64,000 nucleotides of DNA from Endomychus coccineus (lineage: Eukaryota > Arthropoda > Insecta > Coleoptera > Endomychidae): the NCBI GenBank assembly GCA_958510875.1, contig OY294067.1:31608912-31672911 (forward strand). The letters run 5' to 3'. Positions 406-61,393 of the stretch are shown piece after piece. The notes below the pieces were generated by a model, which worked only from the letters and a program-made list of their open reading frames with translations, did not search any database and was not told where the DNA came from. The first letter of the stretch is position 1; the number at the start of each line of letters is the position of its first letter. The position numbers were made by a program, and so were the translations under genes.

Positions 406-639
406 AGTAGGTATGGCGTCACTTGGGGCGGCCAGACAGCGAGCCTTATCAGATGTAGGCAACCAGTAGCGCATGCGCGGTAGTGTATTATCAGCTGGGT
501 AGATGGTGTGACCTCTAGGGTGTGGTCGTCTCTGACCTTGGTGGTAGAGCGATCAGCTTGTATATACAAGATCGTTCAAGGTAGACAGCAAGCAATATGT
601 GAGGTTAGGGAGAACTTCAATGTAAAGCAGCATCAAAAT

Positions 640-717
640 ATTTTTCTACACACGGGAATCGAACCCGAGAAATGAAATCCAAAAGCCAGCTCCTTAACCG
701 CTCAGCTATGGAGGAAT
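640..717 (-). other. tRNA-like sequence with pol III A and B boxes (left TIR)
   Basis: On the minus strand the sequence contains TAGCTGAGCGG (A box, 698-708) and GGTTCGATTCC (B box, 655-665), spaced as in a tRNA, with a TTTT run just downstream. A D-arm (GCT...AGC) and most of a T-arm (CGGG/CCCG) can be paired. The acceptor stem and anticodon arm pair poorly, so a functional tRNA is unlikely. A pol III transcript or a tRNA-derived remnant is more likely. The same sequence is present on the plus strand in the right TIR. Confidence 0.55.
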
Positions 718-2397
718 TGAGAACAAGCGATTTTAATGTTGTAGATATAACCGCGGGGTATCCGGTCTGAGTGATAAGTGCGAGTATATTGCAGTCTATA
801 TGATGCAGGTAATTGTTTTACATGACGTTAGTCATGCAGGTATGTCACGAAGCGAGGTATGGAATGTGAGACTTCATAGCGCTAGCCCATAGGGGTTTTG
901 AAATAGTGTTGTTTGTACATGCCGTCAGTCACGTGATTTTTGAAAGAGACCGGGCATTCAACGGAGGTATCATGGGAGGGCTGCTGTTCCTTGAATGCAT
1001 AAATGGAATGTTATATATAGTATAGAAATGATATCTTCTGCATCTCTCTCAAACGCGATGTTTATAAGGAAATTACTTTCAAAAACGTTTATTCAAGCTG
1101 TCTGTACCTTACTTGATTGCTATATTACAAAATGCAATTTCAATCATCTTAAACATATATGGAAATTATTTTTAGTATACAAAATGGAGTTGGGAGACTT
1201 CAATGGGGTATGGAATGTGAGGTTATACAGATTGTTTATGTATGACGTTAGTCATGTGAATTTGAATGAAGCTGGCGCGATCTCCAACGAGACAGGTGTG
1301 TATGTGAGGTTATACAGAGTGTGCAGGTATAATGATGTCTATCACGCAGGTCTTCAACGAGGTATCTACCTTGCAGGAGCCTTCAATGAAATGTGAGGTT
1401 GTTTGTACATGCCGTTAGTCGCAGGGTTTTGTCTGAGTTATAATGATATCGTACGCGGCGCATTGTCTGCCCCCACAAGTCTTCAATAAGGGCCATAACA
1501 TCTAACATGTGATAGTTTACAAAAATGCTGCTTCTCATAATAGCGATATTATGAAGCGTTTGCAGAAATAACTATTAAATCATCTAAGGACTTTTTGCTT
1601 GATTAGTACTAGCGAGTACAATATTCGTTATAATATTATAAGTATGCATCATTAGCTTACTTGTGCGATAAGGTTGTGCCAAATCATGTCCAACAGCAAT
1701 GTATTCAACTTGAAATTATCGTAATGATGCGCGCGATCCTTCAATGTTAAAGTAGTTTCATAAGTTATCCGAAAGTAAAATGAATATATAAAATGTTTTT
1801 TCCAAAATTAGTTCCGAAGTAAACATAATTCGCTATAATATTCATTCATGTATGTTACATAAATTATCCTATATAATTCAAATAAGGTTGAACAATATTC
1901 ACTATCATTTTTTGCGGTAGAGCTACAGCTCGCTCGAGAGAGATAAGAAAGATACGCCGATCACCTTCAAACGCGATGAGAATACTTTATTTTAAATCAC
2001 ACATATAGTATGTATATATTCGAATCATATTGATTGTAAATCGCATAATATGATCCGAAATCTAGCTGCTGCTGGGTGTAGCCCTATACAGAATCTAGAC
2101 GAAGCGGTGTTACGCATCACGATGATTATTCGAACTGTCTGTACAGCTCGATTGCTATATAACAAAATACATTTTTTTAATCATCTTAAACATATAGATG
2201 TGCTAATATAATTTTTTTTTTCAGTATACAAAAATATACTAATAAAACATTTTTCATCGACACACATTTCTTCATAGGATAGTTGGCTTTTTATAAAATT
2301 CAATCAATTTCAATGGGAAACATATATGCGAGGGAGTTTTATAGAGATCGAACTCATTTCCCCAACCTCCCAAGAGGTAGAACTATGATGAGGAATA

Positions 2398-2906
2398 GAT
2401 GTGGATAATAACCATATGAATATCTTCATAAGCGCTAATCTATACGACATTCAAACACGTGCTTCATAAAAGTCTGAATATTGAGTAGAGCTATAGTATC
2501 TTCTTCATAAGCGATCATTATCATCATTCAGACACTTGTTTAGCACGTGATTCAACAGCCTGGCATCATCGTTCACGAACTATGATGGGCTGATGAGGAA
2601 TAAAATACCAATAATAATTATATAAATATCTCCATTAGCAATCTGTACTATTTTCCTTCACGAGCACGACTTTTACAAACTCCATACGTTCGCGTAAAAG
2701 ATTATAATGATAAACACATTTTTGTTCACGGGTTTACATAATCATATGAATATCTTCATAAGCGCTAATCTATATGACATTCAAACACATGCTTCATAAA
2801 AGTCTGAACATTGAGTAGAGCTATAGTATCTTCTTCATAAGCGATCATTATCAACATTCAGACACTTGTTTAGCACGTGATTCAACAAGCTGACATCATC
2901 GTTCAC
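2398..2906. repeat. 330-bp repeat units in left TIR (one full, one partial)
   Basis: A segment starting near catatgaatatcttcataag and containing the palindromic stretch catcgttcacgaactatgatg is repeated once with 330-bp period. The same unit occurs four and a half times in the right TIR. The unit carries the motif GCACGTGATTC and an inverted repeat around cgttcacgaac, which resembles the 68-bp palindrome array just inside this TIR. Confidence 0.85.
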
Positions 2907-3402
2907 GAACTATGATGGTTCGATGAGGACTCAAACATTGAACAGATGAATCTTTGAGGTTAAATATCTGCTGTAGAAATTACCCCACCTTTATTACCTT
3001 TTATTTGACATTATCGATATTTCCCATGTAACTAACCTAAAGCTATTTTGTATGCAACATTGTTATCATTTGCGAACCTTCGAGAAATTTGGCTGGGGCT
3101 AAATGAATATGTTTGACTATTATTACCTGTAGATTTATTTGAGATTCTTCAAGTTTGAGATTGATAACCCACATGAAGAAAGAAGCTTCAACGAATTGAT
3201 ATCAATGAATATTCGCTATTCTGAATGTGACAACTTTATCGGCTTCAACACTCGAGATAAGAGAGAATATTTACCGCTGATGTAGGGAAAATCAATATGA
3301 TGCATACAAATTGGGGGTGGGTGAGAACATCAGACTATAGCTTTATGTGTATCGAAATACATAAGGATTTTGACGAGTAAGTGGTGTTTTATTGAATTGA
3401 AG

Positions 3403-3800
3403 ATCCGGCGACCATCGTTCACGAACGATGATGACGTCACTGCTTCATACCAATGACAGTAACTGATTCAATCCGGCGACCATCGTTCACGAACGATGAT
3501 GACGTCACTGCTTCATACCAATGACAGTAACTGATTCAATCCGGCGACCATCGTTCACGAACGATGATGACGTCACTGCTTCATACCAATGACAGTAACT
3601 GATTCAATCCGGCGACCATCGTTCACGAACGATGATGACGTCACTGCTTCATACCAATGACAGTAACTGATTCAATCCGGCGACCATCGTTCACGAACGA
3701 TGATGACGTCACTGCTTCAAGCCAATGACAGTAATTGATTCAATCCGGCGACCATAGTTTACGAACTATGATGACGTCATCATCGTTCACGAACTATGAT
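3403..3800. repeat. 68-bp palindromic tandem repeats (5 copies plus a diverged partial)
   Basis: Copies start with atccggcgacc at 3403, 3471, 3539, 3607 and 3675, exactly 68 bp apart, with a diverged sixth copy from 3743. Each contains CATCGTTC-AC-GAACGATG, an 8-bp inverted repeat with a 2-bp spacer, followed directly by TGACGTCA, itself a palindrome identical to the CRE/ATF core. The array lies between the left TIR and the CACGTG array, upstream of all genes. A role as replication origin, recombination site or enhancer is inference. Confidence 0.92.
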
Positions 3801-3891
3801 GGGCTAATGAGGAATAAAATATGAATAATCATAATGTTTGTAATACATTCATGCACATGTTTTATCGCATGATTCAACACATGCTTTAACA

Positions 3892-4485
3892 TTCAGACAC
3901 GTGTTTCAGACACGTGTTTCAACATTCAGACACGTGTTTCAGCATTCAGACACGTGTTTCAGACACGTGTTTCAACATTCAGACACGTGTTTCAGCATTC
4001 AGACACGTGTTTCAGCATTCAGACACGTGTTTCAGACACGTGTTTCAACATTCAGACACGTGTTTCAGCATTCAGACACGTGTTTCAGCATTCAGACACG
4101 TGTTTCAACATTCAGACACGTGTTTCAACATTCAGACACGTGTTTCAGACACGTGTTTCAACATTCAGACACGTGTTTCAGACACGTGTTTCAGCATTCA
4201 GACACGTGTTTCAGCATTCAGACACGTGTTTCAGACACGTGTTTCAACATTCAGACACGTGTTTCAGCATTCAGACACGTGTTTCAGCATTCAGACACGT
4301 GTTTCAGACACGTGTTTAAACATTCAGACACGTGTTTCAGCATTCAGACACGTGTTTCAGACACGTGTTTCAACATTCAGACACGTGTTTCAGCATTCAG
4401 ACACGTGTTTCAGCATTCAGACACGTGTTTCAACATTCAGACACGTGTTTCAGACACGTGTTTCAACATTCAGACACGTGTTCCA
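3892..4485. repeat. array of about 33 CACGTG (E-box) sites
   Basis: Alternating 20-bp (cattcagacacgtgtttca plus a or g) and 13-bp (gacacgtgtttca) units give about 33 copies of ACACGTGT in under 600 bp. The core CACGTG is the canonical bHLH E-box. The open frames across the array in all forward phases are an artefact of the repeat. The array ends about 100 bp before the first TATA box, in enhancer position to the structural genes. Binding by a host bHLH factor is inference. Confidence 0.92.
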
Positions 4486-4588
4486 GCATTCATACCTATT
4501 TAACATGTATTTGATACCTGATTTTGACAGAACCGTAGAAGCACCTAACCGCGCGATCAGACATACACAATATAACATCATCATCTAG

Positions 4589-4596
4589 TATATAAA
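4589..4596 (+). promoter_or_regulatory. TATA box of the packaging ATPase gene
   Basis: TATATAAA in the context CTAGTATATAAACAA. It closely matches the TATA box before the penton-like gene (TTAGTATATAAATAG at 7590-7604). It lies only 25 bp upstream of the first ATG of the ATPase frame, so transcription may begin at or just after that ATG, and the next methionines (codons 12-13) could be used. Confidence 0.6.
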
Positions 4597-4613
4597 CAAA
4601 TGCTTATTAACAT

Positions 4614-5339
4614 ATGTTCCAGTATGATTTCGATTCGCCTTCAGGCATGATGAAGATTGTTAAGCAAAAAGACTCGTTGAGTATTATGAACTTAGGGTCA
4701 AGCAATGAGAATGTTGAACAACCACAACGTCACAGCTCTTTGCTGCCTAATACTCTACGAACAATAATCTGTGGTCCAAGTAATTGTGGGAAAACAAATG
4801 TGATGTTATCTCTATTGTTAGATGCTAACGGCCTGAAATTTGAAAACGTGTACATATATTCAAAGTCTTTACACCAACCAAAATACCAGTTACTAAAGGA
4901 GACATTGAAGAAAATTGAGGGGCTTGGATATTTTCCTTGTACCGAAAGTGATGAGGTCATAGACCCCACAGAAGCGAGACCTAATTCAATCATAATATTC
5001 GATGACGTGATGTTTGGGAAACAGCAGAAAATTCGGGCTTATTTTTCAAGAGGGAGACACAACTCAATTGATAGTTTCTATCTTTGCCAGTCTTTTGCTA
5101 AATGTCCAAAACATGGATTGCGCGACAATGCCAATTGCTTGATTATTTTCAAACAGGATGAGCTCAATTTGAAACATATATTCACCGATCATATAAGTAG
5201 CGACATGTCACTCGAAAAATTCAAAGAGATATGTAGCGTATGTTGGAAAGATAAATATGGATTCCTTATGATAAACAAAGACTGTGATATGAACAAAGGA
5301 CGTTATCGCAAAGGTTTTGATAGTTATATATACATCTAA
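4614..5339 (+). CDS. A32-like genome-packaging ATPase (FtsK/HerA fold)
   Basis: 241 residues. A Walker A motif GPSNCGKT lies at 54-61 and a Walker B strand IIIFDD at 126-131. It is followed by RGRHN...YLCQS at about 146-160, the pattern of the sensor region in A32-type packaging ATPases of Polintons and related large DNA viruses. In that family the enzyme pumps DNA into preformed capsids. It is the first gene of the structural block, 42 bp ahead of the next gene. The true start is ambiguous: the TATA box is so close that translation may begin at methionine 12 or 13, which would leave both Walker motifs intact. The frame has no stops or shifts, and all motif residues needed for ATP binding are visible. 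The family call is strong; activity is inferred. Confidence 0.9.
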   Translation: MFQYDFDSPSGMMKIVKQKDSLSIMNLGSSNENVEQPQRHSSLLPNTLRTIICGPSNCGKTNVMLSLLLDANGLKFENVYIYSKSLHQPKYQLLKETLKKIEGLGYFPCTESDEVIDPTEARPNSIIIFDDVMFGKQQKIRAYFSRGRHNSIDSFYLCQSFAKCPKHGLRDNANCLIIFKQDELNLKHIFTDHISSDMSLEKFKEICSVCWKDKYGFLMINKDCDMNKGRYRKGFDSYIYI

Positions 5340-5343
5340 CATG

Positions 5344-5351
5344 TATATATA
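5344..5351 (+). promoter_or_regulatory. TATA box before the DUF8207-like gene
   Basis: TATATATA directly after the ATPase stop codon, 38 bp upstream of the ATG at 5382. This is a normal distance for a short-leader transcript. It suggests each structural gene has its own promoter. Confidence 0.45.
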
Positions 5352-5381
5352 CTTTCAATTGAAATAGACAACCCGCTCAGC

Positions 5382-6428
5382 ATGGACGTGGGTGTGCTAA
5401 AGAAAAAACAACAATTGAAGAAAAAAATTTGGGAGTTAGCAAACGTTGTGAGGAAAAAATATATGGCTGTGAAATTGGGTAAAGCTGAAAATGATGAGAT
5501 TCTAGATAATATGTTCAGGAATGTATCTAAACCTCTGGAGGAAATTGCGAGAAATGCTGAAATAATCAAACAAAATTCGTTGGTTAAACCTAAAAGTATT
5601 GTTTCTACAGCAACACAAATGGAGAACATACCAATCCCAAATATTGTAACTGAAGGGGAAGAGTTCGTATATAACCCCCAAAATACTGAGGAGGATGTAT
5701 TTACCCTCGAACCTACTATCGATCAGATTCGTGAAGAATTCAGAAAACATAAGAAAGATAATGCAGAGGCTACAGAGGAGTTTCTGCAACAATACCCCAC
5801 ATTAGCACGTTATTACTTGGAAGGATTCCTATTGGATGATGATGTCAAGAAATACGATGATAGAATGGGATTGCAATATAATTCAACTTTAGACAAATGG
5901 TTCATGGGTAATCAACCTATAGAAATTGATAGTGAGAGTAATATAATTATCAAGGGTACTCCGTTCAAGGGTACCACAGGACTGTATAATTTGATATTTT
6001 ATAGAGATGTTCTACCTGATACTTACACTGTGGAAGATGGGAAAAATTACAGTCAAATGATGGAAATGACTAGTGCCCATAGGCGTAATAACGATCCAGC
6101 TGATCGAATAAGAAACATTGTAAAATACAAAAATGTACTGAAACCTTTGATTAATTCCATGAAAAAACCCAGAGCCAAAACATACACTGGAAGTGCATAT
6201 ATCAAAAATGATATGCTTGAATATAACGAGAAACCTATCGAATATGTTTATTGGGATGACGTTAACGAAATGGTGGATAGACTGAGACTTCTTGTTGCAT
6301 CCTCGCATGCCGGTAACCATAATGAGATAATCTCTATAATAGAAGAATTGATAGAGGCAGGGGTAATTGAACAAAAACCAGGTGTAAGACAAATTCATCT
6401 CAGTTATAAAGATGGTTTCAATGGATAA
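5382..6428 (+). CDS. DUF8207-like Polinton structural-block protein
   Basis: 348 residues. Residues 1-60 are Lys/Glu-rich and predicted helical or coiled-coil; 85-130 are acidic; a globular segment at about 165-260 has the GTTGLYNLIFY ... YTVEDGKNYSQMM pattern that I recognise from the DUF8207 family, common in insect and cnidarian genomes beside such capsid genes. No enzymatic motif, signal peptide or membrane segment is visible. The last 17 bp overlap the start of the next frame. Its constant place between the ATPase and the penton-like gene suggests a virion or assembly protein, but its function is unknown. Family identity comes from pattern memory, not a search. Confidence 0.75.
   Translation: MDVGVLKKKQQLKKKIWELANVVRKKYMAVKLGKAENDEILDNMFRNVSKPLEEIARNAEIIKQNSLVKPKSIVSTATQMENIPIPNIVTEGEEFVYNPQNTEEDVFTLEPTIDQIREEFRKHKKDNAEATEEFLQQYPTLARYYLEGFLLDDDVKKYDDRMGLQYNSTLDKWFMGNQPIEIDSESNIIIKGTPFKGTTGLYNLIFYRDVLPDTYTVEDGKNYSQMMEMTSAHRRNNDPADRIRNIVKYKNVLKPLINSMKKPRAKTYTGSAYIKNDMLEYNEKPIEYVYWDDVNEMVDRLRLLVASSHAGNHNEIISIIEELIEAGVIEQKPGVRQIHLSYKDGFNG
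6405..6410 (+). promoter_or_regulatory. possible TATA box of the fibre-like gene
   Basis: TATAAA inside the 3' end of the preceding gene, 7 bp before the first ATG of the next frame. If used, transcription would start near 6432, and the in-frame ATG at 6451 would be the first available start rather than 6412 or 6421. Confidence 0.3.
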
Positions 6429-7065
6429 GTTTGGCAGAGCCTCCTCTTCCATGTGGATATATGATACAAATGTATTTAATAATAATTTCAAACAAGTTCA
6501 CGGACAAGGATTATTCCTAACGAGCGATGGAAGTTATGATATGGAAAATCGTAGATTGTGCAACGTAAAATCACCGAATGATGATGGAGATGTTGCAAAT
6601 AAAGTATATGTTGATAAATTAACACACAAACTGAATCTGAAAACGGAAACCAGTCTTAAAGATACCTTCAATGTTAGGGTTGATAATTTGATCAAAGATA
6701 TCAACAAGGATCTGGATGAACATAACTTAACGAATGACAAGGTTATTCTCAACATTGATAAACATCTGATGGACATTCAGAATAAATATAATGGAATGGG
6801 AATCTATATAAAATCAGAGTATAAAACAATCAGTGATAGTGTAAGGGAAAACAGAAATGAATTGAAAGAGATCAATAACACATTTAACAGTGTGAACATC
6901 CGTCTAAATGACATTACTAGTAAAGTGGAGGCGTTAGAACGACGGATGACATCTGTGGAACCTTCTAAGAAGAGACCTTCATCATCCATAACATCAAAGC
7001 AGGCCTCTGTGAAACGTATATCTCCAAATCCTGTGAATATACCCAAAAAATTAATTCTACACTAG
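6412..7065 (+). CDS. fibre-like coiled-coil protein of the Polinton
   Basis: 217 residues from the first ATG; starts at 6421 or 6451 are also possible. Residues about 40-65 contain MENRRLCNVKSPNDDGDVAN followed by KVYVDK. This resembles the N/DxxN-KYVD segment that precedes the shaft in trimeric tail-fibre and attachment proteins. Residues 65-180 are heptad-rich and helical, and the C terminus is basic and Ser/Pro-rich. The frame overlaps the preceding gene by 17 bp. A role as a trimeric virion spike or fibre is inference from this layout. No knob domain is evident, so it could instead be an internal scaffold. Confidence 0.6.
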   Translation: MVSMDKFGRASSSMWIYDTNVFNNNFKQVHGQGLFLTSDGSYDMENRRLCNVKSPNDDGDVANKVYVDKLTHKLNLKTETSLKDTFNVRVDNLIKDINKDLDEHNLTNDKVILNIDKHLMDIQNKYNGMGIYIKSEYKTISDSVRENRNELKEINNTFNSVNIRLNDITSKVEALERRMTSVEPSKKRPSSSITSKQASVKRISPNPVNIPKKLILH

Positions 7066-7374
7066 ATTTCCACATTGATAAGATGAGTGAAAACAAGTTG
7101 TTCATGAGCTTCATGAGCACAGAAGAAAGAACTTTTACCAGCGTCGAACATACATAAAAGGACTTCAATATAGGTGGAAGGGGTAGGAATATGCAATACG
7201 ACTAGGACGATGAATCAAGAGTCAAGATTGAGATATTTGAAACATATATTGTTAAGATTATACTTAAGTCTTTTGTATTGAGATAATTAATAAAAAAAAA
7301 TTATTTTGAGATCTTTGGTCTTCCCCCCGCCCCTCGTTAAATAACGGTGCAATCTTGAATTCTCATCAGTCTGT
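7066..7374. other. spacer between fibre-like gene and PLA2-like remnant
   Basis: About 310 bp without a convincing gene. It holds a poly(A) signal AATAAA at 7289-7294 followed by an A-run, which could end the transcript of the fibre-like gene, and a C-rich patch near 7324-7334. Confidence 0.6.
7289..7294 (+). terminator. candidate poly(A) signal
   Basis: AATAAA in the spacer about 225 bp after the fibre-like stop codon, followed by a run of A. Confidence 0.4.
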
Positions 7375-7593
7375 ATGGAAGCGTGCGTGGGAGAAGTTGT
7401 TCTCAATACGCTTATAAACAAGCTCCCGTTTGAACTTCAAATCAATACCAGGGGCAAAATTAGAAGAACGGTTGAGGAGATTCAGGGTATCAATTCATTC
7501 GATAAAGCTTGCCGTCTACACGATATTTCATGCAATATAACACTTATAATTGTAGCCAGTTATATTTGGAATTGGTCGACTAACATTTATTAG
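7375..7593 (+). pseudogene. degenerate phospholipase A2-like (parvovirus VP1u-type) reading frame
   Basis: 72 codons. Residues 7-21 (EVVLNTLINKLPFEL) and 38-50 (GINSFDKACRLHD) match the start and the catalytic-helix region of the small phospholipase A2-like proteins encoded by many Polintons and by parvovirus capsids. The His-Asp catalytic pair is at 49-50. The glycine-rich calcium loop expected between these blocks cannot be seen; residues 22-37 are unrelated and basic. The sequence after residue 52 no longer resembles the family. The family function is membrane breach during entry; this copy is probably inactive. It could be a frameshifted copy rather than a short gene. The upstream 310 bp offers no further domain. 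Confidence 0.6.
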
Positions 7594-7604
7594 TATATAA
7601 ATAG
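7594..7604 (+). promoter_or_regulatory. TATA box of the penton-like gene
   Basis: TATATAAATAG, a full TATA consensus, in the context TTAGTATATAAATAG. It lies 36 bp upstream of the ATG at 7630, which favours that ATG over upstream ones at 7606-7612. Confidence 0.65.
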
Positions 7605-7629
7605 ATTGTTGATGAAGTTTTCATCAATC

Positions 7630-8373
7630 ATGTCTCAGACGTTCACTATCACGGGTAAGAGCTCTCGTTTATCTGTAGATTTCCACCCACCTATAGAACT
7701 AGATCCTCATTCATATTATTCTATCGCACTTGTTGGCTTGCATACGTACAATAGCATTCCGAACATTGAAGAAGGTTTTAATAAATTTTATTATGAAGAT
7801 GTGAAGGGTGAGGAAAAAGTAGTTACTATACCTACGGGGTCCTACGAGTTGACAGACATCGAAGATTTCATACAAAGTACAGTTTGTGGGATAGGAGTGA
7901 AGCAAGAAGAGCGTGACCGGAAATTATCAATAAAATCTAACAAGAACACTCTACACACAGAGCTGAAGAGTGATTTTAAAGTGAATTTTATTCCTAAAGA
8001 TAGTATAAGCGAACTGTTGGGATTCAGCAAAAAGAAATTGACATCTCGTGAACTACACGTATCTGATCGACCTATAAACATAATCAAAGTTCAAACTATA
8101 CGCGTAGAGTGTAACTTAACCGCGGGAGCATATTATAACAATAAGATAGCTCATACGATATATGAGTTCTCACCTCTTGTACCACCTGGGTTTTCCATTG
8201 ATATAGAGCCGAAGAATCTTATTTATCTACCGGTCATCAGCAAGACGTCCTTCGATAACATCACGCTGAATATTTTAGATCAGAATTGGAAACCGGTAAA
8301 TTTTCGTGGAGAAGAAATTATTATACGATTGGAATTGAAAAAGATCGCTAGGGATTATGGCTCACAACAATAA
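7630..8373 (+). CDS. penton-like minor capsid protein
   Basis: 247 residues starting MSQTFTITGK. The start at 7630 is chosen because the strong TATA box at 7594 would place the cap site near 7624; the frame is open further upstream. The sequence is beta-rich throughout with SYYSIALVGLHTYNSIPNI at about 28-46 and IPTGSYELTDIE at about 66-77, patterns I associate with the single-jelly-roll minor capsid (penton-type) protein next to the major capsid gene in Polintons. No enzymatic motif, signal peptide or membrane segment is seen. The stop codon TAA is part of an AATAAA (8369-8374), a possible poly(A) signal. The role as the vertex protein is inferred from family and position. Confidence 0.75.
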   Translation: MSQTFTITGKSSRLSVDFHPPIELDPHSYYSIALVGLHTYNSIPNIEEGFNKFYYEDVKGEEKVVTIPTGSYELTDIEDFIQSTVCGIGVKQEERDRKLSIKSNKNTLHTELKSDFKVNFIPKDSISELLGFSKKKLTSRELHVSDRPINIIKVQTIRVECNLTAGAYYNNKIAHTIYEFSPLVPPGFSIDIEPKNLIYLPVISKTSFDNITLNILDQNWKPVNFRGEEIIIRLELKKIARDYGSQQ

Positions 8374-8374
8374 A
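8369..8374 (+). terminator. candidate poly(A) signal overlapping the penton-like stop codon
   Basis: AATAAA whose TAA is the stop codon of the penton-like gene. This is a compact viral-style arrangement. Confidence 0.35.
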
Positions 8375-8453
8375 TAATAATCCAATACTCACCACCACTC
8401 ATTATATGAAAGGAATTCAACTGAGAAGGTTGCAGTAGCCATCACTTGAGAAC

Positions 8454-8669
8454 ATGGGTTTGGATTTTAGCAATAAAAGACATCTCCATAGTGGTCATCA
8501 GTCATTATCTACAACGAGCTCGAGGGAGAAGGTTGCTTCTGCATCACTGTCATTGAAGAAGGAGAAGGTTGCTTCTGCATCACTATCATTGGAAAATATA
8601 AATTTTTTGAAGTCCCTTGGTTACAATGTCGGAAAAACTTCAAATATTCAACGAGCCAAACTTCATTGA
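8454..8669 (+). CDS. small basic protein with a duplicated EKVASASLSL segment
   Basis: 71 residues. The decapeptide EKVASASLSL occurs twice (about 25-34 and 37-46), a 36-bp direct repeat in DNA. The C-terminal part has ENINFLKSLGYNV, a short motif I associate with small proteins encoded before the capsid gene in related elements. The last 44 bp overlap the start of the capsid gene in another phase. No domain or membrane segment can be named. It may be a real virion peptide or only the upstream open frame of the capsid mRNA. Confidence 0.45.
   Translation: MGLDFSNKRHLHSGHQSLSTTSSREKVASASLSLKKEKVASASLSLENINFLKSLGYNVGKTSNIQRAKLH
8595..8604 (+). promoter_or_regulatory. possible TATA box of the major capsid gene
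   Basis: AATATAAATT, about 30 bp upstream of the capsid ATG at 8626 and inside the small overlapping frame. It would give a leader of only a few bases. Confidence 0.35.
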
Positions 8670-9828
8670 AGACATCATCCGGGAAGAAACTCATACCTAC
8701 TATCCACACACAACATCTTTTGGCAACAGCGATGAAATTGAGATATTAATCAATCAACAAGATGTGTTGGTAGATTTGGCATCGTCTGCTTTATTCATCG
8801 AGGCAGAATTCCAGCCAGAAGCAAGTGGTGATGGTGAATATAAACTAACGAATAATTTCGGAGCGTTTCTCTTCGAATATATTAGTTATGAATTGAATGG
8901 AAAAGAGATAGACAAAGTACGTGATCCTGGTATTGTCAGCACCATCAGAGCTTATCTAACATATGCCAAACATGAATCTATACCTCTAGCTATTTCTGGA
9001 TGGTCATTTAAGGATGCATTGAGTTCAGTCTACAATAATAAAATCAATTTATGGATACCGTTGAATTTTCTACTAGGCCTATTCATTGACTATAACAAAG
9101 TCTTGAGTGGAAAACATAAGCTGCGCTTGATAAGGTCTCGAACCGATAACGATTGTTATACCAATAGCACAGGTACGAAGAGGGCTAAAATAAATGTGAA
9201 GACGATAGCATTAAAAGTGCGACATGTGTTTCCAAGTGATCAGGTTAAATTTCAAATGTTGGAGAATTTGAGTGCTGAGAAGCCTATTTTGATTCCATTT
9301 CGCAGCTGGGATCTGCATGAAAATCCGTTGATGAAGGAGAGCACTCGTGACATTTGGGCTGTTAAAACATCAATGAATTTGGAACGACCCAGATATGTGA
9401 TTTTAGCTTTCCAAACTGATCGAAAAAATAATCCTGTTAAGCACAGTGCATATTTCGATAATATAAACTTGCTAAATGTAAAATTATACTTGAATTCAGA
9501 GTGTTATCCATATGAAGCAATGAAATTGAATTTCACCGACCAGCAATACGTGGAAGCATACCAGATGTACTATGATTTCCAGAAATCATTTTCAAATAAA
9601 ATAATAAGCGAACCCATGTTAGATTATATAGCATTCAAGAATAGAGCAATTTTTGTGATTGACTGTTCAAAACAAAACGATGCTATAAAGTCATCAACAG
9701 TTGACGTCAAACTAGAGATGGAAAGTTTCCTGAATTTCCCCAAAAACACCAGGGCTTATTGCATCATCATTAACGATCGTATAATGGAGTATTCTCCAAT
9801 TACAGGATCAGTTCGGAGTTTAGTGTGA
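8626..9828 (+). CDS. major capsid protein, double-jelly-roll type (Polinton)
   Basis: 400 residues starting MSEKLQIFNE. The ATG at 8626 is the first in frame; upstream codons (TTG at 8617) are not starts. Residues 33-60 (motif SDEIEILINQQD at 35-46, then an FIEAEF strand) match the N-terminal strand of the Polinton/adintovirus double-jelly-roll capsid protein. The rest is beta-rich with a SWDL...NP...T.IWAV segment in the middle and a C-terminal ...LEMESFLNFPKNTRAYCIII block. The length is somewhat short of large hexons but fits this family. The frame is intact. It is the last gene of the block, with AATAAA at 9875-9880 about 50 bp downstream. Assembly into particles is inferred, not shown. 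Confidence 0.85.
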   Translation: MSEKLQIFNEPNFIEDIIREETHTYYPHTTSFGNSDEIEILINQQDVLVDLASSALFIEAEFQPEASGDGEYKLTNNFGAFLFEYISYELNGKEIDKVRDPGIVSTIRAYLTYAKHESIPLAISGWSFKDALSSVYNNKINLWIPLNFLLGLFIDYNKVLSGKHKLRLIRSRTDNDCYTNSTGTKRAKINVKTIALKVRHVFPSDQVKFQMLENLSAEKPILIPFRSWDLHENPLMKESTRDIWAVKTSMNLERPRYVILAFQTDRKNNPVKHSAYFDNINLLNVKLYLNSECYPYEAMKLNFTDQQYVEAYQMYYDFQKSFSNKIISEPMLDYIAFKNRAIFVIDCSKQNDAIKSSTVDVKLEMESFLNFPKNTRAYCIIINDRIMEYSPITGSVRSLV

Positions 9829-10137
9829 AGAACCATGAATCTGTTATTATTTTAATTCTAAATGTATTTTTCTAAATAAATGTTATTATTATTATTTTTG
9901 GTATTTTATTTCTCTCACTTTCCCGCAAGACATCACAATAATGAACGAGCCGTTTGGTAAAGTACAGTCCCTTGGATCAACCCATCAGGATTGTAATCTA
10001 AATTTTAAATATCGCTTCAGGTCTAGAAACAAAAATGTATGCAACTATCTAATTAATAAATATAAAAGTGATTCAGATTATTATGTTATCTTTTCAATTA
10101 TTATAATATGTAGTACCTAGTGGTTATAAGACAGTTT
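9829..10137. other. non-coding spacer between the capsid gene and right TIR
   Basis: AT-rich, with the capsid poly(A) signal and no open frame of note. No integrase, polymerase or protease gene fits here. Together with the TIRs this accounts for all remaining DNA in the element. Confidence 0.7.
9875..9880 (+). terminator. poly(A) signal of the capsid gene
   Basis: AATAAA 47 bp after the capsid stop codon, followed by T- and GT-rich sequence. Confidence 0.6.
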
Positions 10138-10496
10138 GCGGTAAATATTCTCTCTTATCTCGAGTGTTGAAGCCGATAAAGTTGTCACATTCAGAATAGC
10201 GAATATTCATTGATATCAATTCGTTGAAGCTTCTTTCTTCATGTGGGTTATCAATCTCAAACTTGAAGAATCTCAAATAAATCTACAGGTAATAATAGTC
10301 AAACATATTCATTTAGCCCCAGCCAAATTTCTCGAAGGTTCGCAAATGATAACAATGTTGCATACAAAATAGCTTTAGGTTAGTTACATGGGAAATATCG
10401 ATAATGTCAAATAAAAGGTAATAAAGGTGGGGTAATTTCTACAGCAGATATTTAACCTCAAAGATTCATCTGTTCAATGTTTGAGTCCTCATCGAA

Positions 10497-11995
10497 CCAT
10501 CATAGTTCGTGAACGATGATGTCAGCTTGTTGAATCACGTGCTAAACAAGTGTCTGAATGTTGATAATGATCGCTTATGAAGAAGATACTATAGCTCTAC
10601 TCAATGTTCAGACTTTTATGAAGCATGTGTTTGAATGTCATATAGATTAGCGCTTATGAAGATATTCATATGATTATGTAAACCCGTGAACAAAAATGTG
10701 TTTATCATTATAATCTTTTACGCGAACGTATGGAGTTTGTAAAAGTCGTGCTCGTGAAGGAAAATAGTACAGATTGCTAATGGAGATATTTATATAATTA
10801 TTATTGGTATTTTATTCCTCATCAGCCCATCATAGTTCGTGAACGATGATGCCAGGCTGTTGAATCACGTGCTAAACAAGTGTCTGAATGATGATAATGA
10901 TCGCTTATGAAGAAGATACTATAGCTCTACTCAATGTTCAGACTTTTATGAAGCATGTGTTTGAATGTCATATAGATTAGCGCTTATGAAGATATTCATA
11001 TGATTATGTAAACCCGTGAACAAAAATGTGTTTATCATTATAATCTTTTACGCGAACGTATGGAGTTTGTAAAAGTCGTGCTCGTGAAGGAAAATAGTAC
11101 AGATTGCTAATGGAGATATTTATATAATTATTATTGGTATTTTATTCCTCATCAGCCCATCATAGTTCGTGAACGATGATGCCAGGCTGTTGAATCACGT
11201 GCTAAACAAGTGTCTGAATGTTGATAATGATCGCTTATGAAGAAGATACTATAGCTCTACTCAATGTTCAGACTTTTATGAAGCATGTGTTTGAATGTCA
11301 TATAGATTAGCGCTTATGAAGATATTCATATGATTATGTAAACCCGTGAACAAAAATGTGTTTATCATTATAATCTTTTACGCGAACGTATGGAGTTTGT
11401 AAAAGTCGTGCTCGTGAAGGAAAATAGTACAGATTGCTAATGGAGATATTTATATAATTATTATTGGTATTTTATTCCTCATCAGCCCATCATAGTTCGT
11501 GAACGATGATGCCAGGCTGTTGAATCACGTGCTAAACAAGTGTCTGAATGTTGATAATGATCGCTTATGAAGAAGATACTATAGCTCTACTCAATGTTCA
11601 GACTTTTATGAAGCATGTGTTTGAATGTCATATAGATTAGCGCTTATGAAGATATTCATATGATTATGTAAACCCGTGAACAAAAATGTGTTTATCATTA
11701 TAATCTTTTACGCGAACGTATGGAGTTTGTAAAAGTCGTGCTCGTGAAGGAAAATAGTACAGATTGCTAATGGAGATATTTATATAATTATTATTGGTAT
11801 TTTATTCCTCATCAGCCCATCATAGTTCGTGAACGATGATGCCAGGCTGTTGAATCACGTGCTAAACAAGTGTCTGAATGATGATAATGATCGCTTATGA
11901 AGAAGATACTATAGCTCTACTCAATATTCAGACTTTTATGAAGCACGTGTTTGAATGTCGTATAGATTAGCGCTTATGAAGATATTCATATGGTT
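10497..11995. repeat. 330-bp tandem repeats in right TIR (about 4.5 copies)
   Basis: The block ttattggtattttattcctc recurs at 10801, 11131, 11461 and 11791, exactly 330 bp apart, and the units between are nearly identical. The outermost copy is partial, stopping where the sequence changes to ttattatccacatc near 11995. The left TIR has only about 1.5 units, so copy number changed in one arm only. Confidence 0.92.
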
Positions 11996-13675
11996 ATTAT
12001 CCACATCTATTCCTCATCATAGTTCTACCTCTTGGGAGGTTGGGGAAATGAGTTCGATCTCTATAAAACTCCCTCGCATATATGTTTCCCATTGAAATTG
12101 ATTGAATTTTATAAAAAGCCAACTATCCTATGAAGAAATGTGTGTCGATGAAAAATGTTTTATTAGTATATTTTTGTATACTGAAAAAAAAAATTATATT
12201 AGCACATCTATATGTTTAAGATGATTAAAAAAATGTATTTTGTTATATAGCAATCGAGCTGTACAGACAGTTCGAATAATCATCGTGATGCGTAACACCG
12301 CTTCGTCTAGATTCTGTATAGGGCTACACCCAGCAGCAGCTAGATTTCGGATCATATTATGCGATTTACAATCAATATGATTCGAATATATACATACTAT
12401 ATGTGTGATTTAAAATAAAGTATTCTCATCGCGTTTGAAGGTGATCGGCGTATCTTTCTTATCTCTCTCTCGAGCGAGCTGTAGCTCTACCGCAAAAAAT
12501 GATAGTGAATATTGTTCAACCTTATTTGAATTATATAGGATAATTTATGTAACATACATGAATGAATATTATAGCGAATTATGTTTACTTCGGAACTAAT
12601 TTTGGAAAAAACATTTTATATATTCATTTTACTTTCGGATAACTTATGAAACTACTTTAACATTGAAGGATCGATAATTTCAAGTTGAATACATTGCTGT
12701 TGGACATGATTTGGCACAACCTTATCGCACAAGTAAGCTAATGATGCATACTTATAATATTATAACGAATATTGTACTCGCTAGTACTAATCAAGCAAAA
12801 AGTCCTTAGATGATTTAATAGTTATTTCTGCAAACGCTTCATAATATCGCTATTATGAGAAGCAGCATTTTTGTAAACTATCACATGTTAGATGTTATGG
12901 CCCTTATTGAAGACTTGTGGGGGCAGTCAATGCGCCGCGTACGATATCATTATAACTCAGACAAAACCCTGCGACTAACGGCATGTACAAACAACCTCAC
13001 ATTTCATTGAAGGCTCCTGCAAGGTAGATACCTCGTTGAAGACCTGCGTGATAGACATCATTATACCTGCACACTCTGTATAACCTCACATACACACCTG
13101 TCTCGTTGGAGATCGCGCCAGCTTCATTCAAATTCACATGACTAACGTCATACATAAACAATCTGTATAACCTCACATTCCATACCCCATTGAAGTCTCC
13201 CAACTCCATTTTGTATACTAAAAATAATTTCCATATATGTTTAAGATGATTGAAATTGCATTTTGTAATATAGCAATCAAGTAAGGTACAGACAGCTTGA
13301 ATAAACGTTTTTGAAAGTAATTTCCTTATAAACATCGCGTTTGAGAGAGATGCAGAAGATATCATTTCTATACTATATATAACATTCCATTTATGCATTC
13401 AAGGAACAGCAGCCCTCCCATGATACCTCCGTTGAATGCCCGGTCTCTTTCAAAAATCACGTGACTGACGGCATGTACAAACAACACTATTTCAAAACCC
13501 CTATGGGCTAGCGCTATGAAGTCTCACATTCCATACCTCGCTTCGTGACATACCTGCATGACTAACGTCATGTAAAACAATTACCTGCATCATATAGACT
13601 GCAATATACTCGCACTTATCACTCAGACCGGATACCCCGCGGTTATATCTACAACATTAAAATCGCTTGTTCTCA

Positions 13676-13758
13676 ATTCCTCCATAGCTGAGCGGTTAAG
13701 GAGCTGGCTTTTGGATTTCATTTCTCGGGTTCGATTCCCGTGTGTAGAAAAATATTTT
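13676..13758 (+). other. tRNA-like sequence with pol III A and B boxes (right TIR)
   Basis: A box TAGCTGAGCGG at 13685-13695, B box GGTTCGATTCC at 13728-13738, and a TTTT run at 13755-13758 that could stop pol III. The D- and T-arms can form but acceptor pairing is poor, so this is a tRNA relic or a pol III small-RNA promoter rather than a working tRNA. It is identical to the left TIR copy and points outward from the element. Confidence 0.55.
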
Positions 13759-13987
13759 GATGCTGCTTTACATTGAAGTTCTCCCTAACCTCACATATTG
13801 CTTGCTGTCTACCTTGAACGATCTTGTATATACAAGCTGATCGCTCTACCACCAAGGTCAGAGACGACCACACCCTAGAGGTCACACCATCTACCCAGCT
13901 GATAATACACTACCGCGCATGCGCTACTGGTTGCCTACATCTGATAAGGCTCGCTGTCTGGCCGCCCCAAGTGACGCCATACCTACT

Positions 13988-13993
13988 TCCATA
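13988..13993. repeat. target-site duplication, right (tccata)
   Basis: Identical to 400-405; the satellite monomer continues directly with acaatgattttgc. Confidence 0.95.
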
Positions 13994-56133: not shown

Positions 56134-58130
56134 TCATTTTATATCTTCTTTTCTGACTTCTGTATGTTTACATTTGATGTGACGTTTCAAAGCTGACATA
56201 TAAGGGCTTTCAAAGTCACAATATTCACACTTATGTATCTTCTCTCTAGTATGTATAGAGTTAATGTGACCTTTTAAAGCCGACATTTGAGGGCTTCCAT
56301 AATCGCAATACTCACACTTGTGTAACTGTTCTCTAGTGTGTTTAGATTTGATGTGACTTTTTAAATTTGACATCTGAGGGTTTCCATAATCGCAATACTC
56401 ACACTTATGTATCTTCTCTCTTGTGTGTTTAGAGTTGATGTGACGTTTTAAATTGGACATTTCGGGACTCCCGTAATCACAATAGGTACACTTGTGTATC
56501 TCCTCTCTTGTGTGCATTGAGTTAACGTGACTTTTTAAACCTGACATCTGAGGGCTTCCATAATCACAATAATCACACTTGTATATCTTCTCTCTTGTGT
56601 GTATAGAATTGATATGACTTTTTAAAGCCGACATGAGAGAGCTTTCATAATCGCAATACTCACACTTGTGTATCTTCTCTCTTGTGTGTTTAGAGTTGAT
56701 GTGACGTTTTAAAGTTGACATTTGCGGGCTCTCATAATTGCAATACTCACACTTATGTATATTCTCTCTTGTATGTTTAGAGTTGATGTGAGTTTTCAAA
56801 CCTGACATCTGAGGGCTTCCATAATCGCAGTATTCACACTTGTGTATCTTTTCTCTTGTGTGTATAGAGTTGATGTGACTTTTAACTGCCGACTTCTGAG
56901 GGCTTTCATAATCGCAATACTCACACTTATGCATTTTCTCTCTAGTATGTTTAGAGTTGATGTGATATGTTAAGGTTGACATTTGATGGGTGACATAATC
57001 GCAATACTGACACTTTTGTATTTTCTCTACTGAGTGTTTTGAGTTGACATGATTTTTTAAATCGGACATTACAGGGCTTTCATAATCACAATATTCACAC
57101 TTGTGTATATTCTCTCCAATGTGAATAGAGTTGATATGACTTTTTAAATAAGAGATACAATTGCTTTCAAAATCACAATGTTCACATTTATATGTTTTTA
57201 ACCTTTTGCGTTTCCTGTTAACATTAGTTTCTAAAGCAATTTCACTTGTATTACTGGTGTGAGATACCAAGTTGGGAGATGGAATATTTTGATAAGAACG
57301 TTCATTTTGTCTGTCATGTGTCACCATCTCATTTTCTTCCATGTTTGTTACATCATCACAATTATATCCACTATATTGGCATTCCGATGAGTCTTTTATA
57401 TCCAGAATTTCGATAGAACACTTCTTATCCAAACAATTGAAATTTTCATGGTCACCTTCAATTAAATCTTTGTCATCTTTGATATATTCCTGTGCCAGAT
57501 CTTCCAATTCCTCATCAACACTGCACTTTTCGATTCTGAAAAGGTATGGATCAAATATTATTTTCAAACAATTTAGGTCAAAGCAAATTGGATTAGTGAG
57601 TCGCCCTTGTCATTTGATTCTCCCTAATTTTTTTGATCAATGACATTTAAAATAAAAAAAGATGTTCACTAATGTTATATGTAAAAATCAGAAATTCTAC
57701 AAATTGTCTAATGAAGATACACGAATCTTCCTAAATTTGTTTTTCATCATTCACCCTTTCTGTTATACTTAATGCAACAAAAAAACTGCCACAAGGTATA
57801 AGCTATATTCTTCAATATAGGTACATCATTTTGATTCCAATTTCATGTCTGTTCAATATTTCCAACCACTTTTTAAACAGAGTAAGTTATGGAAATTAAC
57901 TATATAAAAATATGTCATTCATCTTTTATTTGAACAAGTAAATTATCCGCAGAACAGTCCGAAAAGAAAAAGATCAGTTTATTGATAAAAACTTACTTTA
58001 TCTTGAATTCCTGACTTTCTGCAGATTCCTCTTTAATTCTCTTTATATCTATGTATTCAGGAATAATATTTTCATATTTAATTTCAATCTGACTTCCCCA
58101 ATCTGGATCACTCTTTACTGTTGATAACAT
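56134..58130 (-). CDS. C2H2 zinc-finger protein, 12 fingers, two exons
   Basis: Exon 1 is 58130-57997 (ATG at 58130, MLSTVKSDPDWGSQIEIKYE..., donor GTAAGT); exon 2 is 57535-56134 (acceptor CCTTTTCAG). Joined, the phase fits exactly (134 + 1402 nt), giving 511 residues; the in-frame ATG at 57567 lies in the intron. The N terminus is acidic without a ZAD or BTB domain. Twelve fingers follow, C-X2-C-X12-H-X4-H, pattern HKCEYCDYESPQMS.LK.H, joined by TREKIHKC linkers. The aromatic residue sits two after the second Cys rather than four, as in REST/Hunchback-type fingers. Variation among fingers is concentrated at helix positions 3 and 6, which contact bases. A nuclear DNA-binding regulator is likely. 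Tandem paralogue at 59813-61393. Confidence 0.88.
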
Positions 58131-59812: not shown

Positions 59813-61393
59813 TTATAATTTATCTTCTCTCATGACTTTTACATGTTTATTCTTGATGTGACGTTTTAAATTTGACATCTCAGGGCTTCCATAAGCACAA
59901 TACTGACACTTGTGTATCTTCTCTCTTGTATGTGTAGAGTTAATGTGACGTTTCAGAGTTGACATCTGAGGGCTTTCATAATCACAAAACTCACACTTCT
60001 GTATCTTCCCTCTTGCATGTTTAAAATTGATGTGACTTTTAATACTGGAGATGAGAGGGCTTTCATAATCGCAACATTCACACTTGTGTATCTTCTTTCT
60101 TGTGTGTTTACAGTTAATGTGACGTTTTAAATTTGACATTTCAGGGCTCTCATAATTGCAATAATCACACTTGTGTATCTTCTCTTTTGTGTGTATAGAA
60201 TTGGTATGATTTTTTAAATTTGACATCTGAGGAGTTTCAAACTTGCAATACGCACACTTATATATCTTCTCTTTTGTGTGCATTGAGTTAATGTGAGTTT
60301 TTAAATTTGACATCTGAGTGCTTACATAATTGCAATACTGACAATTGTGTATCTCCTCTTTTGTGTGTATTGAGTTGATGTGAATTTTTAAATTTGAAAT
60401 AAGAGTGCTTTCATAGCCGCAATAATCACACTTGTGTATCTTTTCTCTTGTGTGCTTAGAGTTGATATGACTTTTTACAGCCGACTTCTGACAGCTTTCA
60501 TAATCGCAATACTCACACTTGTGTATCTTCTCTCTTGTGTGTTTAGAGTTGATGTGATATGTTAAAGTTGACATTTGAGGACTTTTATAATCGCAATACT
60601 GGCACTTGCGTATCTTCTTTACCGTGTGTTTCGAGTTGATGTGATTTTTTAATGCTGACATCCTAGGGCTTTCATAATCGCAATGTTCACATTTATATAT
60701 CTTCACCCTTTTGTGTTTCCCGTTAACATTAGTTCCTAAAGTAATTTCACTTGTGTTACTGGTATGAGATACCAAGTTAGAGGATGGAATATTTTGATAT
60801 GCAGAAAATTCATTTTGTCCGTTATGTGCCACCACCTCATTGTCCACGTTATCACAATTATATCCACTATATCGGCATTGCAATGAGTCCTTTGTACCCA
60901 GAATTCTGATAGAACCCTTTTTATCTGAACAATCAAAATTTTCATGGTCATCTTCATTTAAATCTTTTTCATCTTTGACACATCCCTGTGACAGATCTTC
61001 CAATTTCTCATCAACAATGCACTTCTCCATTCTGAAAATGTGAGGATCAAAAATTATTTTCAATTAAACAATTACGGCAAAAGCACATTGATTAATGAGT
61101 CAGTCTAATTTTATTCATCAGTGACGTTTAAATAAACGCCTATATAGGATTCTTTAATATACATTATTTTCAGAATTTATTTTCACTTTTTAAACAAAGT
61201 ACATTATGGAATTCTGGTGTACAAAAATATACATTAGTTGTTTATTGATAAAAACTTACTTTATCTTGAATTCCCGACTATCTGTAGATTCCTCTTTAAT
61301 TCCCTTTATATCTATGTATTCAGGAATAATATTTTCATATTTAATTTCAATCTGACCTCCCCAATCTGAATCGTTCATTACTGTCGATAACAT
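59813..61393 (-). CDS. C2H2 zinc-finger protein, 10 fingers, two exons (paralogue)
   Basis: Exon 1 is 61393-61260 (ATG at 61393, MLSTVMNDSDWGGQIEIKYE..., donor GTAAGT); exon 2 is 61031-59813 (acceptor CATTTTCAG). The joined frame (134 + 1219 nt) is open and gives 450 residues; the methionine at 61063 lies in the intron. Exon 1 is the same length as in the first gene with few changes. Ten fingers of the C-X2-C-X12-H-X4-H type follow, with linkers such as TREKIHKC and TKEEIHNC. The first three fingers align with fingers 1, 3 and 4 of the paralogue, so fingers were gained or lost after duplication. As in the paralogue, differences between fingers fall mostly at helix positions 3 and 6. Probably a nuclear regulator; target unknown. 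Confidence 0.88.

Follow-up and report, generated by a model that had tools for sequence, protein, structure and literature searches.

Locus and gene content

A 64-kb window of the genome of the beetle Endomychus coccineus (64,000 nucleotides of contig OY294067.1; C1:31608912-31672911 in the 906 Mb searched) contains a Polinton-like element at window positions 406-13987, referred to here as the capsid element. Its termini are exact (AGTAGG...CCTACT) and are bordered by a perfect 6-bp target duplication, TCCATA, an unstranded feature read directly at 400-405 and 13988-13993. This is in agreement with the Polinton ends and the duplication reported in the initial annotation. The left terminal inverted repeat (TIR; 406-3277, plus strand, about 2.9 kb) pairs with 13987-10138 at 97-99.5% identity in pieces. 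The right TIR (10138-13987, minus strand) is longer because of a 330-bp tandem array of 4.6 units at 10486-11997. The element thus has both the 6-bp duplication and the AGT...ACT-type ends in long TIRs by which Polintons, or Mavericks, are recognised.

Between the TIRs, five open reading frames (ORFs) lie on the plus strand. The first is an A32-like packaging ATPase (4614-5339; Pfam Pox_A32, E 8.2e-6, above the cut-off). It is followed by a conserved, unnamed gene of 348 aa (5382-6428), a coiled-coil, fibre-like gene with weak matches to phage head/tail profiles (6412-7065), a penton-like gene (7612-8373) and the major capsid protein (MCP) of the double jelly-roll (DJR) fold (8626-9828; PF21738, E 1.3e-89). 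The ATPase and DJR capsid identities are secure at the level of sequence profiles, and this pair of genes is a further mark of Polintons. The capsid protein has its best named relatives in beetles, namely Sitophilus oryzae (53%), Molorchus, Aromia and Tribolium. Scans of IMG/VR, run with this protein and with a 20-row capsid alignment, found no relative. The penton-like gene matches no Pfam family above the cut-off and has 467 database homologues; its product gave a beta-rich AlphaFold2 model (pLDDT 89.9). The name 'penton' is our assumption, suggested by gene position. The intact particle gene set claimed initially is therefore seen in the five open frames and the two Pfam identities. The label 'DUF8207-like' was not confirmed for the 348-aa gene, for which no Pfam family was found above the cut-off.

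The other Polinton hallmarks, a protein-primed DNA polymerase (PolB) and a retroviral-type integrase within the element, are both absent. Both PolB types and the integrase proteins of the same genome gave no match in 406-13987 at E up to 1, and the positive control matched. An adenovirus-type protease was not named by Pfam in the six ORFs submitted. These absences had been anticipated from the sequence. The accompanying claim that no unexplained coding space remains has to be corrected, as a relic of a phospholipase A2 gene lies at 7455-7531 (plus strand; 88% identical to L079, described below). Its part at window 7486-7530 was found in 23 of 30 loci (L039-L068, window included) and in a further element, L072. 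Among the seven loci without it, at least three carry a deletion at its place. The capsid family thus multiplied after the phospholipase A2 gene was lost. The remaining space upstream of the ATPase includes a 68-bp tandem repeat (3403-3779, plus strand) and a TTCAGACACGTGTTTCAGCA-type array (3872-4492, plus strand), in which no gene was called.

Copies of the capsid element and selection

In a protein search of the genome, at least 104 capsid copies were scored (best of 4488 candidates); they are 99-100% identical, and 100 are free of stops. Such lists consist of the best-scoring matches, and "listed" is used in this sense hereafter. When the TIR was used as a query, matching ends turned up in pairs, usually with a spacing of about 12 kb. 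One of these pairs, L072 (C1:52811783-52824167), was chosen by its ends; its capsid gene is absent from the matches listed. In the 5 kb read, the same five frames are open, including those of the ATPase, the 348-aa protein and the fibre-like protein, and the capsid frame runs past the end of the stretch. The two elements differ by about 2% in DNA. Perfect target duplications were present in all four capsid elements read at both ends (TCCATA, CAGGTT, GACAGT, GTCTCA).

These copies bear on two alternative explanations. The window element abuts a 289-bp satellite array, which extends to window 19647, and such a setting could point to an assembly artefact or to an internal deletion confined to this copy. 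The probability of this is practically negligible, as independent elements with other flanks, duplications and tip sequences have the same layout and size. Domestication of the particle by the host, which was proposed at the outset, would agree with the retention of capsid genes without replication genes. It is nevertheless very improbable, given that the copies are many and dispersed, bear their own fresh target duplications and tip barcodes, and do not form a single conserved locus.

Several side observations concern these copies. At C5:45079669-45137770, three window-type TIR ends lie on the same strand exactly 13,985 bp apart, followed by two on the opposite strand, in a tandem/inverted array. 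Other DJR capsid families also occur in the genome. Grouped by score and frame length, one of them has dozens of equal-scoring open copies. An integrase lies within a few kb of two of these other types; around the commonest type, integrase and PolB are mostly missing among the matches listed.

The comparison between the window element and L072 is the only one not picked by capsid similarity. Across the five genes, 19 nonsynonymous and 15 synonymous differences were counted, giving a dN/dS of about 0.3 (rough binomial P 0.0013). The counts were 3/2 for the ATPase, 6/7 for the 348-aa gene and 1/4 for the penton-like gene. For the latter, a dN/dS of 0.23 was obtained from 23 copies, one with a stop, at loci picked by protein score and hence biased downward. 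Taken together, sequence comparison makes constraint on the capsid gene set likely.

Polymerase elements with related ends

A search with PF03175 revealed two PolB types in the genome, A and B, which are 35-40% identical. The tip of a type-B element at C1:194422796 is 91% identical to the window tip over 165 aligned columns. When the tip of a type-B element was used as a query, pairs of ends 18.2-18.6 kb apart were found around type-B PolB. The borrowing of a polymerase from a full Polinton, as initially suggested, is therefore supported insofar as polymerase genes reside in other elements with related ends. It is not supported in that the likely helper has no capsid genes and neither class showed an integrase in the pieces read.

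One polymerase element, C7:1228836-1247090, was read in pieces, excluding about 2.4 kb near the left end and the 3.6 kb holding PolB. From one end to the other it consists of a TIR of about 1.2-1.6 kb, a matrix metalloproteinase (MMP) gene, a zinc-finger protein (ZF) gene, several kb with PolB-like scraps and no called gene, PolB and a non-coding stretch. The PolB frame is open over 1252 aa. Type-B PolB contains an OTU-like stretch and polymerase motifs. The MMP (501 aa; L073:3-1505, minus strand) matches Peptidase_M10 (E 4.8e-33), with propeptide and hemopexin matches. In this copy, the third histidine of the zinc site is replaced by arginine; histidine is found in 10 of 10 aligned relatives. 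The ZF is a C2H2 protein of 186 aa and has no match in the capsid element.

The order MMP-ZF-PolB is fixed at 15 loci; at four additional type-B PolB copies, MMP and ZF are in the opposite orientation. ZF lies beside MMP at 45 of 89 MMP places. None of these 89 is within 15 kb of any of 230 listed capsid places, comprising the window type and three other types. In a tblastn comparison of the capsid-element proteins with the polymerase pieces L069-L071 and L073-L075, only scraps were found (best E 0.17), and the controls matched. Both polymerase elements read at both tips have perfect duplications (GAAATA and AATAAA). The dN/dS was 0.11 for type-B PolB (13 copies) and 0.52 for type-A PolB (5 copies). 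An IMG/VR scan with a two-row PolB alignment found no relative, and a comparison of PolB with phage records gave four remote matches (best 8e-6). Type-B PolB copies were also observed head-to-head a few kb apart at C5:82055657/82060382 and C5:69633328/69640648.

Size classes and shared ends

Ends listed in several searches were pooled into 76 TIR-bounded pairs, and gene content was assessed among the matches listed. Most pairs (54 of 76) are 11.3-13.6 kb long (median 12.4). A listed capsid gene is present in 27 of these 54, and a listed PolB or integrase in none. Among the 27 without a listed capsid gene, the one read (L072) has it. Had the window copy been an exceptional deletion, polymerase or integrase genes would be expected at every other locus of the family, which is not what was found. 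Four pairs are 18.2-18.6 kb long. Two of them hold MMP, ZF and PolB, one MMP and ZF, and one ZF and PolB; no capsid gene is listed in any. The rest comprise two pairs of 14-17 kb with a capsid gene, three of 9-11 kb (one with a capsid gene), seven under 9 kb and six over 19.5 kb, one of which has MMP and ZF. None of the 76 pairs combines a listed capsid gene with a listed polymerase-element gene, and none holds a listed integrase.

The two classes have sequence in common. A 54-base stretch inside the tip of a polymerase element occurs with zero mismatches in at least six pairs with a listed window-type capsid gene, e.g., C1:153809961-153822125 and C2:165357605-165369951. End subtypes are therefore common to capsid and polymerase elements. 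Further inside, beside the 3' flank of the capsid gene, the block 9923-10460 (unstranded) is 72-88% identical to the polymerase pieces L070 and L071, where it occupies the corresponding position with respect to an end. Two polymerase elements also contain a weak penton scrap of 40 bp (E about 2e-5). The shared block and the scrap are compatible with descent of both classes from one ancestor. As in a segmented or bipartite genome, two gene sets that complement each other thus reside on separate DNAs whose ends are alike, with the integrase unaccounted for.

The tips are informative in another respect. Across 36 paired elements, TIR positions 1-6 and 16-22 are invariant and positions 7-14 are variable, forming a hypervariable barcode. 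Tip comparison places it at 412-419 (plus strand) at the left tip of the window element and, identical in sequence, at 13974-13981 (minus strand) at the right tip. Both tips have identical 28-mers in 34 of 36 pairs, with 22 different barcodes. Between different elements, the 28-mer is the same in 2.5% of comparisons. The search tolerated up to three mismatches to the window tip, so the range of variation is understated. Self-matching tips were also seen in the two polymerase elements read at both ends. Such identity would be expected if one tip served as template for the other ahead of insertion, for instance in panhandle or protein-primed replication of the adenovirus type. A tRNA-like stretch was noticed by eye in the TIR at window 641-735, with its mirror in the right TIR. 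It also occurs in capsid elements L002, L003, L008 and L046 and is not present in the five polymerase pieces compared. ARAGORN found no tRNA there, and Rfam gave one doubtful match (E 0.49).

Integrase and phospholipase A2 genes elsewhere in the genome

A Polinton-type integrase (rve, E 1.7e-9) lies tail-to-tail with type-A PolB. A search with it gave at least 127 matches (best 123 of 4860 candidates), among which the integrases of type A form one group. Seven of nine integrases of the 314-aa-frame type are within 6.3 kb of one capsid type, and three of five of the 310-aa-frame type are about 3.7 kb from a capsid match. A further 70 among the matches listed are mostly of the 330-aa-frame type. 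No integrase was found in the capsid or polymerase pieces read (best match E 0.18). The 6-bp duplications were thus probably made by an enzyme of another family, or of an unseen segment. A general search with the rve family (best 150 of 6521 candidates) gave three matches with a listed neighbour within 16 kb (PolB at 13.8 kb, capsid at 9.1 kb, ZF at 11.2 kb). As this search was swamped, they were taken as background.

The phospholipase A2 gene (PF08398, E 5.7e-11; mostly a 270-aa frame) is exemplified by L079 (C8:1722500-1722750). At least 150 places were scored, identical over 83 aa, with matches listed in C1 and C2. Other listed Polinton genes are rare within 15 kb of these places.

A system of more than two parts could account for these genes. 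An integrase segment, and perhaps one for phospholipase, would have escaped detection, their ends being related but further diverged, and the whole would be a multi-segment virus. A Polinton-type integrase is clearly used by both classes, judging from the 6-bp duplications. The roughly 70 integrase copies of the 330-aa-frame type and the phospholipase A2 places lie mostly away from listed capsid and PolB genes; the exceptions are two capsid matches, the first 5.6 kb from a phospholipase A2 place, with a TIR end in between, and the second at 14.4 kb from an integrase. The phospholipase A2-bearing stretch on C8, a large pair whose left part matches the capsid element in spot reads, has the 68-bp repeat too. 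Nevertheless, this arrangement is considered quite unlikely, because not one of 153 listed ends lies within 20 kb of any of 122 integrase places, and neither do the 104 places of the window-type capsid or the 63 of type-B PolB.

Interpretation

We consider it somewhat more probable than not that the window element represents one half of a bipartite Polinton, the half with the capsid genes, and that the polymerase is carried by separate elements whose ends match. In the simplest account, a single Polinton gave rise to two complementary elements that amplify together, each having lost genes kept by the other. One lineage would have kept the particle genes and its partner of about 18.3 kb the protein-primed type-B PolB, a secreted-type metalloproteinase and a zinc-finger protein. 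The end sequences common to both classes would be the sites where protein-primed replication starts, and the partner PolB probably copies both linear DNAs. Among the inferred steps, this replication in trans via the common ends seems the best supported. The ATPase, capsid and penton-like protein of the capsid segment could package both DNAs, which is plausible. A Polinton integrase of another family would insert both classes with 6-bp duplications; integration in trans would be required for both as read.

Several results weigh against this bipartite model. As the lists hold the best-scoring matches, absence from them is no proof of absence from the genome. No MMP is listed within 12 kb of 44 of the 63 listed type-B PolB copies, and because these copies are unlinked to the partner genes, a full autonomous relative may exist. 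One such PolB, read for 1.75 kb downstream, matches polymerase-element sequence over 904 bp and is followed by no further gene. Integrase sequence does occur near two partner genes: a partial copy 7.4 kb from one MMP place and, on C92, a copy together with type-A PolB 8-9.5 kb from one ZF place. Five of the pairs over 19.5 kb have no listed capsid, polymerase-element or integrase gene, and two of these five hold the phospholipase A2 gene. The test of selection called for by the initial annotation came out below neutral for the one unbiased pair as a whole, but the fibre-like gene shows 7 nonsynonymous and 2 synonymous differences and the part of the capsid gene compared (170 codons) 2 and 0. 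The MCP dN/dS of 0.025 in 30 capsid loci is biased downward, since these loci were picked by protein score.

An alternative suggested by some of these results is that the capsid elements are passengers, or satellites, of an unseen full autonomous Polinton, with capsid genes persisting only through a young burst. The copies are nearly identical, the unbiased dN/dS comes from one pair, most listed type-B PolB copies are untied to partner genes, and full or fuller Polintons exist in the genome (capsid and integrase within 6.3 kb). Passengers would, however, hardly be expected to keep five frames open in two elements about 2% apart with fewer nonsynonymous changes than under neutrality, and no full gene set was found among the 76 pairs with these ends. 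This alternative is therefore rather unlikely.

The bipartite model can be extended to a multipartite, genome-integrating double-stranded (ds) DNA virus, a view offered tentatively and with some doubt. Capsid, polymerase/metalloproteinase and perhaps integrase and phospholipase modules would travel as separate Polinton-like elements with common replication ends, held together only by complementation, and the barcodes would mark tip-to-tip copying in each replication cycle.

Other features of the window

By eye, ORFs of the window beyond 19647 resemble transposases of the Tc1 and hAT types and part of a reverse transcriptase. C2H2 zinc fingers are encoded by two long ORFs at 56134-57609 and 59813-61063.

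Comparison with known systems

Polintons are usually treated as self-contained units straddling virus and transposon. A split Polinton, if true, would show a route by which a dsDNA element turns multipartite inside a genome. A capsid-only lineage also tests whether Polinton capsids act, as selection can keep particle genes only if particles or their cargo matter. With two element classes in one genome, trans-replication and packaging become testable. The literature search gave no description of a bipartite or capsid-only Polinton family within the part of the literature covered.

The capsid element resembles Polintons/Mavericks (eupolintoviruses) in its 6-bp duplications, long TIRs with AGT-type tips, packaging ATPase, DJR capsid and penton-like gene. 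In vertebrate Mavericks, the tips are most often AGTAGT and eight genes are conserved (PMC8097293). Intact Polintons known so far combine PolB and integrase within one element, unlike the arrangement found here. The gene loss described for Polintons runs opposite to the capsid-only case, in that capsid, protease and ATPase genes disappear jointly; an adenovirus-type protease is present in 74% of Polintons (PMC4028283).

Adintoviruses and meldviruses offer a second parallel, as the partner metalloproteinase is 39% identical to a collagenase named for a Ladona dragonfly adintovirus. Genomes with adenovirus-class virion proteins and no recognisable PolB or integrase are mentioned as well (PMC11071296). 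In contrast to the present case, these viruses are single contigs, and no partner with matching ends is described in the part of that paper covered. The distribution of genes over separate linear DNAs, together with a PolB of Polinton/adintovirus type, is shared with bidnaviruses and the multi-segment, bidna-like Vesanto virus (PMC11071308, PMC11071296, PMC8363768). Those viruses have single-stranded DNA and parvovirus-type capsids, whereas the elements described here are integrated dsDNA elements with a DJR capsid.

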